The notes under the pieces are model-generated. The model had not been told where the DNA came from, searched no databases, and saw nothing but the letters and a program-made list of their open reading frames with translations. Both the position numbers and the translations under genes were made by a program. DNA of 64,000 nt from contig NZ_FRDJ01000002.1 of the NCBI RefSeq assembly GCF_900143265.1, positions 62,001-126,000 on the forward strand, read 5' to 3'. Positions 8,215 through 50,996 of the stretch are shown piece by piece (the first letter of the stretch is position 1; each line of letters starts with the position of its first letter). Source of the stretch: Fervidobacterium gondwanense DSM 13020. GTDB taxonomy: Bacteria > Thermotogota > Thermotogae > Thermotogales > Fervidobacteriaceae.

Positions 8215-9588
8215 ATGCACGATTTCGATACATTAACACCCCGTCAGATAGTAGAAGAGCTAAACAAATACATAATAGGGCAGAATGAAGCGAAAAAGGC
8301 TGTCGCTATCGCAATTCGTAATAGGATAAGAAGACAGAGGTTGCCAGAAGAATGGAGAAAAGAAGTAATACCTAAGAATATACTGTTAATAGGTCCAACA
8401 GGTGTTGGAAAGACCGAGATAGCAAGAAGATTGGCACAACTCTCAGGTTCTCCGTTTTTGAAAGTTGAAGCGACAAAGTTCACAGAAGTGGGCTACGTTG
8501 GAAAGAATGTAGAATCCATGATACGCGATCTTGTTGAAATCGCGGTCAATATGGTTAAGCAAGAGAAGATAAAAGAAGTAGAACCGAAGATTAAAGAACT
8601 CGTGGAGGAGAGAATTCTTGAGGCACTCGTCCCAAGTAAAAAACAGAGTGTACCATTTGCAAATATATTCGGTTTTCAACCGCAATCAGAGCAACCTGAT
8701 GAGCATGACATTAGAAGGCGAAGAGCAGAATTAAGAGAAAAACTCAAGAATGGTGAATTGGAAGACATGGAGATCGAAATAGATGTTGAGGCGTCTACAC
8801 CAGGCGTTGGATTTGTGGGAATTCCCGATATGGAAGATATGGGGATAGATTTTTCTCAGGTATTGGGAAATATTCTACCAAAGCAGAAGAAAAGAAGGAG
8901 GATGAAAATCTCCGAAGCTCGGAGGGTATTGGCACCTATTGAGTCAGAAAAGGTTATAGATATGGATGAAGTTGTGCAAAAAGCGTTGGTGCTCGCACAA
9001 GAGAGAGGAATCATATTTATTGACGAGCTTGATAAAGTAGCGGGTGGGGGGCAAACACATGGACCTGATGTTTCAAGACAAGGTGTGCAAAGAGACTTAC
9101 TGCCAATAGTTGAAGGAACTACAGTGACAACAAGGTATGGACCAGTGAGAACCGATTATATACTCTTCATCGGAGCCGGGGCGTTCCACATGACAAAACC
9201 GACAGATCTCATCCCAGAACTGCAAGGAAGATTTCCTATAAGAGTTGAGCTTGAACCTCTAAAAGAGGATGATTTTATAAGGATATTAACTGAACCTGAA
9301 AATGCTCTTGTAAAACAGTACAAAGCGCTGTTGTACACCGAGGGTGTCGAGCTTGATTTTACTCAAGACGCGATACGACAGATAGCGAAGATCGCATATC
9401 AACTTAATGAAAGACTTGAAAACATAGGCGCAAGAAGACTGTACACCGTTGTTGAAAAGCTCTTAGAAGACATCATGTTCCAAGCACCTGAAGTGGAAGA
9501 AAAGAAAGTAGTCATCGATGGAGAATTTGTTGTAAAAAAACTCGGAGAAATAGTAAAAGACGAGAATATTTCATCGTATATCTTGTAA
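8215..9588 (+). CDS. hslU: HslU ATPase (unfoldase of the HslUV protease)
   Basis: HslU forms hexameric rings that unfold proteins and feed them to the HslV peptidase. Walker A (GPTGVGKT) is at residues 60-67, Walker B (IIFIDELDK) at about 266, with the intermediate I-domain between them (about residues 110-240). The C-terminus SSYIL resembles the tail that inserts into HslV to activate it, which argues for an HslV partner. The start is ATG after TGGAGGTG. At 457 residues it is full length. hslV is normally the upstream neighbour, but here that place is taken by the M16 peptidase gene. Confidence 0.95.
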
Positions 9589-48693: not shown

Positions 48694-48731
48694 TTAGCAC
48701 TCTTGACATATGAGTGCTAATCTGGTAAAAT
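48694..48731 (+). promoter_or_regulatory. CIRCE operator within a strong promoter (HrcA site)
   Basis: A perfect CIRCE element, TTAGCACTC (48694-48702), 9 bases, GAGTGCTAA (48712-48720), surrounds the -35 box TTGACA (48703-48708), which lies in its spacer. The -10 box TAAAAT (48726-48731) follows at 17 bases with TGG before it. HrcA bound here would block RNA polymerase, so the clp gene should be heat-shock controlled. Confidence 0.95.
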
Positions 48732-48776
48732 TGTCCCGGAATGGAAATAAGAAAAAGGATTAAGAAAGGGGTGGTC

Positions 48777-50996
48777 ATGATGATGTTTAACACGGAAGAC
48801 TTCACCGAAAACGCTCAGGAGATTTTGCAGTCCGTTTCCGATGTTTTAAACAGATACAGGCAAAATCAGATGGCGCCCGAGCACATATTGTTGACTATGT
48901 TAGAAAACACAAAAAATGCAGCTTATGATATTCTAAGCCATCTGAATGTAGATATTGATGCACTCCGCAGTGATGTCGAACGCGCTATTAGTTCAAAAGG
49001 CTCATACTACTATTCTTCAGGTGGAACAGGTCAGGTTTTCATAGCACCAGACACTACGAAGGTAATCAACGAAGCTAAACGTGAAGCGAAACGCATGGGT
49101 GACGAAAAGGTAGGTACGGATCACCTGTTGCTGGCGATGACGATTGTTCCAGAAACTACAACTTACAGGTTACTTACAAGATATGGCGTAACTCAAGACA
49201 AGCTTTACAGCGCCATCAAAGAGTTGAGGATGAAGAGAACGTATTCTGAAGAGGAAAATATAGACGTACTTGCAAAATTTACAGAAAACCTTACAGAGAT
49301 GGCAAGGAACGGTCAATTGATGCCGGTTGTCGGTCGAGAGAACGAAGTTAATAGGATGATAGAGATTCTTGGCAGGAAGATCAAAAACAATCCAGTACTC
49401 ATTGGTGATCCTGGTGTTGGGAAGACTGCGATTGTTGAAGGGCTCGCACAGAGAATTGTAAAGAATGAAGTTCCTGATTTCCTTAAGAACAAGACAGTCT
49501 TAAAACTTGACCTCGCAAGACTCGTTGCAGGAACGAAATTCAGGGGTGAGTTTGAAGAAAGGTTGAAGAAGCTGATAGATGTTCTCAAGAAACGAACAGA
49601 TATAATACTGTTCATAGATGAGCTACATACTGTCGTTGGCGCAGGTGCTGCGGAAGGTGCACTTGACGCGGGAAATATTTTGAAGCCGGAATTGGCGAGA
49701 GGAACTCTAAGAGTTATTGGTGCTACAACCGTTGAGGAATACCGAAAACATGTAGAGAAAGACAAGGCCCTTGCAAGAAGGTTCCAAGTTATATTCGTAC
49801 CAGAGCCAAGCGTTGAAGAGACAATTGAAATTTTGAAAGGATTGAAGCCGAAGTTTGAAGAATTCCACGGTGTTAAAATAACTGATAAGTCTATTGAGGC
49901 AGCTGCGAAGTTGTCTTCAAAGTACATTACTGATAGATTTCTGCCTGACAAGGCGGTTGACTTGGTTGATGAAGCTGCTGCAAGAGCGAAGATTGACGGT
50001 AAGGCAGAAATATTGGAAGAAGATATTGCAAGGATTGTGGAACGTTGGACAGGCATACCTGTTGGCAAGCTAATGGGTGATGAAAAGGAGAAGATTAAAA
50101 ACTTAGAAAAGTTTATACACGAGAAATTTGTTGACCAGAAAGAAGCAGTTAGGCTTGTTTCTAACGCAATTAAGATGGCAAGAGCAGGTATAAGGAATCC
50201 TAAGCGTCCACTTGGCGTGTTCCTCTTCTTAGGTCCGACTGGTGTTGGGAAAACTGAACTTGCAAAGCGATTGGCTGATGTAATCTTCGGAAGTGAAAAG
50301 GCACTCATAAGGATAGATATGAGCGAGTACATGGAGAAGCATTCAGTTGCAAGGTTGATAGGTGCGCCTCCGGGATACGTTGGTTACGAAGAAGGTGGGC
50401 AACTTACCGAACAGGTTAGGAGAAGACCGTACAGCGTTGTACTATTCGATGAAATAGAAAAGGCTCATCATGAAGTTTTCAACGTCTTATTGCAACTTTT
50501 CGATGATGGAAGGCTTACAGATGGAAAGGGTACAACTGTGGACTTTAGAAACACGATAATAATCATGACGAGCAACATCGGTTCAGACGTAATTATCCAG
50601 GATATCGAAGATGGCTTGGAAGATGCTATTCCAAGGCATATGGAAGAAGAGATGCGCAGGTACTTCAGACCCGAACTCATCAACAGAATAGACGCAGCGG
50701 TTGTATTTAAACCTTTGAAGAAGGAACATATAAAACAAATAATCTCCATCTACTTGAAGGAACTAAACGAAAGACTTGCTGATAGAAAGATTACAGTTGA
50801 ACTTGATCAAAACGTAATGGAATATTTAGCAACAGAAGGATACGTTCCTACGATGGGTGCAAGACCATTGAGAAGGTTGTTTGAAAACACTATAGAATTC
50901 AAATTAGCAGAACTTATCATAGATGAAAAGGTCAAAGAAGGAAACAAGGTGCTCTTCTCGATGAAAGATGAAGGGTTAAGCTGGGAAATACTCTAA
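48777..50996 (+). CDS. Clp/Hsp100 AAA+ ATPase, ClpB-like but lacking the middle domain
   Basis: The protein has about 739 residues: a Clp N-domain (residues ~1-145), NBD1 (Walker A GDPGVGKT at about 210, Walker B ILFIDELH) and NBD2 (Walker A GPTGVGKT at 486-493, Walker B VLFDEIEK). Only ~20 residues separate AARAKID (about 401) from the WTGIPV motif (424), where ClpB has a coiled-coil M-domain of about 120 residues and ClpC a shorter one. The ClpP-docking loop [LIV]-G-[FL] was not found in NBD2. So it is neither a standard ClpB nor a clear ClpA/ClpC. ATG 48777 or 48780 follows GGGG; the ATG at 48741 would be leaderless. It is controlled by CIRCE. Confidence 0.85.

Follow-up and report, generated by a model that had tools for sequence, protein, structure and literature searches.

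Bacterial Hsp100 disaggregases thread their substrates through both AAA+ rings (PMC8129007, PMC11006417). In ClpB, DnaK binds to the M-domain and thereby targets and activates the machine; ClpG and ClpL act alone by way of special N-terminal domains (PMC8129007, PMC11006417). A coiled-coil M-domain is found in each of the bacterial disaggregases that have been characterised, namely ClpB, ClpG and ClpL (PMC8129007, PMC11006417). A literature search on M-less Hsp100s and on the absence of ClpB in Thermotogota, which reached few subscription papers, returned nothing on point.

The window analyzed here, a stretch of 64,000 nucleotides from Fervidobacterium gondwanense DSM 13020, encodes an Hsp100 of 739 amino acids. 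An earlier note on this DNA described it as an Hsp100 ATPase with two intact AAA+ modules and a ClpB-like motor, placed under heat-shock control and lacking both the M-domain and the ClpP loop.

Gene, promoter and domain architecture

The reading frame starts with an ATG at position 48777 of the forward strand and ends with a stop codon at 50996. Genes for MFS and MATE transporters, rpsF and ssb adjoin it. The features of the locus are the following:

48694..48720, +: CIRCE operator TTAGCACTC-N9-GAGTGCTAA (HrcA site), perfect, kept upstream of the gene in the genus Fervidobacterium
48703..48731, +: promoter TTGACA-N17-TAAAAT whose -35 box falls within the CIRCE spacer, from sequence reading
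48765..48774, +: ribosome-binding site AAAGGGGTGG, from sequence reading
48777..50996, +: Hsp100 coding sequence, 739 amino acids, without M-domain and ClpP loop (reading frame, NCBIfam and Pfam profiles, AlphaFold2)
48777..49229, +: N-terminal double Clp_N repeat (Pfam PF02861, two stretches)
49266..50012, +: NBD1 (first AAA+ module) with Walker A and B, pore loop TKFRGE and Arg-finger motif (Pfam, motif reading)
49947..50063, +: direct joint DKAVDL..WTGIPV, residues 391-429, where ClpB has about 120 extra M-domain residues (alignment, AlphaFold2)
50079..50711, +: NBD2 (second AAA+ module) with Walker A and B and intact pore loop GYVGY (Pfam, motif reading)
50577..50681, +: place of the ClpP-binding loop, occupied by a helix-turn-helix with a degenerate DGL turn (alignment, AlphaFold2, motif reading)
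50715..50951, +: ClpB_D2-small C-terminal domain (Pfam PF10431)

The Pfam domains are, in order, a double Clp_N, AAA, AAA_lid_9, AAA_2 and ClpB_D2-small. In NBD1, Walker A1 (residues 210-217), Walker B1 (277-282) and the Arg-finger motif (331-336) are intact, as are Walker A2 (486-493), Walker B2 (554-559) and the sensor motif GARPLRR (694-700) in NBD2. Pore loop 1 reads TKFRGE (253-258), with a phenylalanine where other Hsp100s commonly have a tyrosine, and pore loop 2, GYVGY (533-537), is intact. Both AAA+ modules are thus intact, as the earlier note had claimed. Another reading frame in the window (8215-9588, 457 amino acids) matched the Hsp100 query weakly as an AAA+ protein and could encode HslU or ClpX.

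Neither M-domain nor ClpP loop is present

The joint between NBD1 and NBD2, aligned from DKA to WTGIP, measures 38 residues, compared with 158-164 residues in ClpB (E. coli, Azospirillum, Rhodococcus and further ClpBs); ClpC has 99 residues here, and ClpA of E. coli has 42. The Fervidobacterium protein therefore has neither the ∼120-residue M-domain that ClpB carries in its NBD1 lid nor the half M-domain of ClpC type. An AlphaFold2 model (mean pLDDT 85.8, pTM 0.56, built on a 38-sequence alignment) shows two helices at the joint, residues 391-406 and 414-425, connected through a short turn, and no coiled coil or displaced M-domain was found elsewhere in it. Alignment and model therefore bear out the absence of the M-domain. 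Two other explanations were rejected. A split or displaced M-domain is seen neither in the model nor in the neighboring transporter, rpsF and ssb genes, and an annotation error or truncation of ClpB is at odds with the architecture shared by all complete orthologues aligned from families f1 and f2 of the clade described below.

At the position of the ClpP loop in NBD2, some 10 residues of the ClpC segment are missing, and what is left is modeled as a helix (603-611), a three-residue turn DGL (612-614) and a second helix (615-629). It is neither an IGL-type loop as in ClpA nor an [LV]GF loop as in ClpC and corresponds to the loop-less state of ClpB. Alignment and model again agree with the earlier note, with the qualification that a degenerate DGL turn is present. 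In Fervidobacterium orthologues, this turn reads [D/E]-G-[L/F/I] (E-G-F, E-G-I or D-G-L outside the present genome), in the register of the xGF triplet of ClpC and with an acidic first residue. Several sister genera no longer have it; orthologues of Thermosipho type have EQN, EEN or EEK instead.

One could therefore read the protein as a ClpA-like partner of ClpP that docks through the degenerate DGL/EGF at residues 612-614. ClpA likewise combines an N-D1-D2 layout of two AAA+ rings with the lack of an M-domain and has a joint of similar length (42 vs 38 residues), the triplet lies in the ClpC register and ClpP is encoded in the genome. However, the first residue of the triplet is acidic rather than hydrophobic, the shortened segment is modeled as a tight turn between helices, and the Thermosipho-type orthologues do not keep the triplet; these features together predict that docking to ClpP is unlikely. 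Moreover, the ClpC of the same genome retains a normal LGF loop and, with ClpP present as well, the proteolytic slot is already filled. The Fervidobacterium protein also differs from ClpA in having WTGIP instead of IARIP and a heat-shock operator, and E. coli ClpA is placed far away in the tree, albeit on a long branch. We consider such a ClpA-like role very improbable.

A Thermotogota-specific clade with graded loss

Trees were built on the columns of NBD1 and NBD2, from which joint and loop had been removed. They place the Fervidobacterium protein in a Thermotogota-specific Hsp100 clade together with orthologues that have a half M-domain (support 100/100; 100/99 for the f1-f3 part), outside ClpB and ClpC as sampled here. 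ClpB forms a clade of its own (99/92 and 100/97 in two trees), and Thermotogota ClpC is separate. The score of the protein with the NCBIfam ClpB model TIGR03346 is 977.4 bits, below the cut-off of 1232.1 bits. The term “ClpB-like motor” in the earlier note is not supported as it stands, even though a sister position of the Thermotogota clade to ClpB is compatible with the data (AU p 0.145). Clustering with an already characterised M-less family is not seen either, the distance to ClpA being subject to its long branch.

Within the clade, the joint measures 38-39 residues and the ClpP triplet is missing in every complete orthologue aligned from f1 (Fervidobacterium, Thermosipho and relatives) and from f2. 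The orthologue in f3, which we infer to be Thermotogaceae, has a joint of 95 residues, corresponding to a half M-domain, and no ClpP loop; half M-domains without a clear ClpP loop are also found in f5 and f6. A second paralogue with a half M-domain and no loop occurs in f3, in part of f1 and in one f2 genome (G028). Members of f4 have half M-domains together with [LV]GF loops. The clade thus shows a graded loss, from half M-domain plus ClpP loop (f4) through half M-domain only (f3, f5, f6) to neither (f1, f2). The half-M state is likely the older one within the clade, so that the Fervidobacterium protein would descend from a half-M Hsp100 in which the ClpP loop was presumably lost first and the half M-domain later. 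One or two M-domain losses in f1 and f2 fit the data (AU p about 0.43). Six f4 loci encode an additional Hsp100, distinct from ClpC, that has both the half M-domain and the [LV]GF loop and lies inside the clade. The conversion appears to have started from this form, the other clade members having lost the loop.

Hsp100 inventory and gene order

Canonical ClpB was found in none of the 101 Thermotogota genomes searched, whereas 8 of 14 control genomes were positive. A second, full-length ClpB and ClpP were the two proteins that the earlier note proposed to look for. In the genome of the Fervidobacterium protein (99% complete), no match reaches the ClpB cut-off, while both ClpP and DnaK are encoded. 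The one other Hsp100 found there is ClpC, with a 99-residue joint.

Since this ClpC is ∼53-56% identical to the M-less protein over the main matched stretches, the latter might join ClpC rings or other Hsp100 assemblies as an accessory subunit and modulate them. Its two intact ATP sites, its own heat-shock operator and the linkage of hsp100 to dnaK and hsp20 rather than to clpC make this the least probable of the explanations weighed.

This linkage is seen as a dnaK-hsp20-hsp100 order on one strand at four f2 loci with M-less genes and at three f5/f6 loci with half-M genes and no clear ClpP loop. The gaps measure roughly 30-140 bases, and the predicted dnaK and hsp20 reading frames overlap at one f5 locus. 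In f1 genomes, the three genes are dispersed, and hsp100 does not adjoin dnaK in Fervidobacterium.

Probable heat-shock control by a CIRCE operator

The operator upstream of the Fervidobacterium gene has no mismatches, where 0.02 sites are expected by chance with up to three mismatches allowed, and it overlaps the promoter across the -35 box. A perfect CIRCE on the promoter bears out the placement under heat-shock control claimed before, with HrcA as the probable repressor of the gene. Only three sites with at most one mismatch occur in the whole genome: before this Hsp100, before an hsp20 gene and before dnaK. A three-mismatch site precedes groES-groEL; a control pattern also matches at up to three mismatches, so that this site rests on its position.

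In Fervidobacterium, a CIRCE with 0-4 mismatches lies upstream of the M-less gene. In the sister genus g2, a one-mismatch site is located ∼1.7 kb upstream of it (L275), with two other reading frames in between. In Thermosipho-type genomes and in f3, the operator precedes the half-M paralogue instead; the M-less protein is therefore not necessarily the principal heat-shock form in all lineages. No half-M paralogue was found in Fervidobacterium, where CIRCE sits on the M-less gene, which suggests that the M-less protein has taken over the heat-shock role from the paralogue. In one f1 genome (G019, 99% complete), no M-less copy was found, and there are only the half-M paralogue, with a three-mismatch CIRCE, and ClpC.

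M-less Hsp100s outside Thermotogota

A scan of GTDB species genomes for the joint-length pattern, which misses f2-type sequences, gave at least 119 stretches. Among the matches listed, a simple motif test found a ClpP-loop-like triplet in all 52 readable stretches of Bacillota; it was absent from all 14 of Bipolaricaulota and also from Microgenomates-type Patescibacteria and Thermotogota. The Bipolaricaulota and Microgenomates-type proteins resemble the Fervidobacterium protein in their joint of 39-44 residues and the lack of a recognizable ClpP triplet, and neither is described in the papers searched. In the Bipolaricaulota, the similarity extends to the genome: no canonical ClpB was detected in the five genomes searched, and a CIRCE-like TTAGCAGTC-N9-GACTGCTAA precedes most M-less Hsp100 genes and, in two genomes, also hsp20. 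Their origin differs, as a single origin of the Bipolaricaulota and Thermotogota M-less proteins was rejected (AU p 2e-10). The Patescibacteria proteins differ in that many carry long insertions where the loop would be.

Several further observations were made. The CIRCE-like element, apparently a shifted CIRCE, was seen upstream of Hsp100 at nine Bipolaricaulota loci, and this compensated operator variant suggests co-evolution with the HrcA of these organisms. At six Microgenomates-type loci, long inserts of low complexity occupy precisely the place of the ClpP loop. Many Oscillospiraceae (L105, L112, L115, L149 and other loci) encode M-less Hsp100s that combine WTGIP with an LGF-type loop, a layout within Bacillota that resembles ClpA. 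Two proteins, one from Verrucomicrobiota and one from an uncultured organism, lack both M-domain and ClpP loop, are nested inside ClpB and occur alongside a normal ClpB. One Bipolaricaulota protein (L233), which has a half M-domain and lacks a clear ClpP loop, clusters with plasmid-borne ClpG/ClpK (100/99) and is possibly a chromosomal relative of ClpG.

A candidate replacement for ClpB

By the features tested, the Fervidobacterium protein is not ClpB, ClpA or ClpC and probably works like ClpB. It shares with ClpB/Hsp104 the double Clp_N, the two AAA+ rings, the WTGIPV joint motif, the lack of a ClpP loop, heat-shock control and, as judged here from gene linkage and operator, a pathway link to DnaK and a small Hsp. 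It differs in lacking the ∼120-residue DnaK-binding M-domain and in its place outside the sampled ClpB clade and below the cut-off. ClpC is close in fold, as ClpC chains head the Foldseek list, and clade relatives have a half M-domain of ClpC size, in f4 also a ClpP loop; the Fervidobacterium protein has neither, and Thermotogota ClpC is a separate clade.

From motifs, gene order and the structural model, we lean towards a candidate ClpP-uncoupled heat-shock threading chaperone that fills the place of ClpB in Fervidobacterium, within the Hsp20/DnaK pathway. The intact ATPase and pore motifs, the lack of ClpB in the Thermotogota genomes searched, the dnaK-hsp20 linkage and the common CIRCE argue for this reading, as does the independent pairing, in Bipolaricaulota without ClpB, of an M-less Hsp100 that also lacks the ClpP loop with a CIRCE-like operator that hsp20 has too. 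Against it counts that M-less disaggregation is unprecedented among the characterised bacterial disaggregases, as do the separation of hsp100 from dnaK in Fervidobacterium itself, the CIRCE on the half-M paralogue in Thermosipho-type genomes and Thermotogaceae, and the G019 genome with no M-less copy found. The protein would form a hexameric two-ring machine driven by ATP, which would pull heat-damaged proteins from aggregates and then release them instead of feeding them to ClpP. It would act in one pathway with Hsp20 and DnaK, whose genes have an operon or the CIRCE in common with its own. With the M-domain gone, substrate recruitment must run via the double Clp_N domain or a candidate DnaK contact on another surface.

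The earlier note had left the choice between a stand-alone remodeller and an unknown partner. The latter is now narrowed: orthologues in dnaK-hsp20-hsp100 clusters and the CIRCE shared with dnaK and hsp20 indicate that the pathway partner is probably known, the contact itself apart. A fully stand-alone disaggregase or remodeller that works without DnaK as ClpG and ClpL do, its Clp_N binding aggregates and the M-domain loss leaving a constitutively active ring, we regard as rather unlikely. It would agree with the absence, in the AlphaFold2 model, of the M-domain on which DnaK docks. In ClpL, point mutants of the M-domain that assemble into single rings only still disaggregate with partial to full activity, and derepressed ClpB needs no more than an N-terminal domain that binds aggregates to become independent of DnaK (PMC11006417). 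The same single-ring mutants are, however, toxic in cells (PMC11006417), and the kept dnaK-hsp20-hsp100 order and common CIRCE point to a joint pathway. ClpG/ClpK and ClpL resemble the Fervidobacterium protein in their link to heat resistance and in not interacting with ClpP, as is predicted here, but ClpG and ClpL have coiled-coil M-domains (joint ∼99 residues in ClpG, ∼90 in ClpL) and special N-terminal domains, where the Fervidobacterium protein has an ordinary double Clp_N.

Returning to the candidate replacement for ClpB, we put forward, tentatively and with some doubt, that an Hsp70-linked disaggregase may do without the M-domain: stripped versions, to which DnaK/Hsp20 deliver substrate via Clp_N or another AAA1 surface, would have evolved independently in Thermotogota and Bipolaricaulota.

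A review of bacterial disaggregases asks which machine serves bacteria that lack ClpB (PMC8129007, section 9). For a phylum of thermophiles without ClpB in 101 genomes, a candidate replacement linked by its genes to dnaK and hsp20 can now be named. The Thermotogota clade represents a natural deletion series, with half M-domain and ClpP loop, half M-domain only, or neither, through which the separate functions of M-domain and ClpP loop can be studied. The same stripped form of Hsp100 has been reached independently in at least two phyla.
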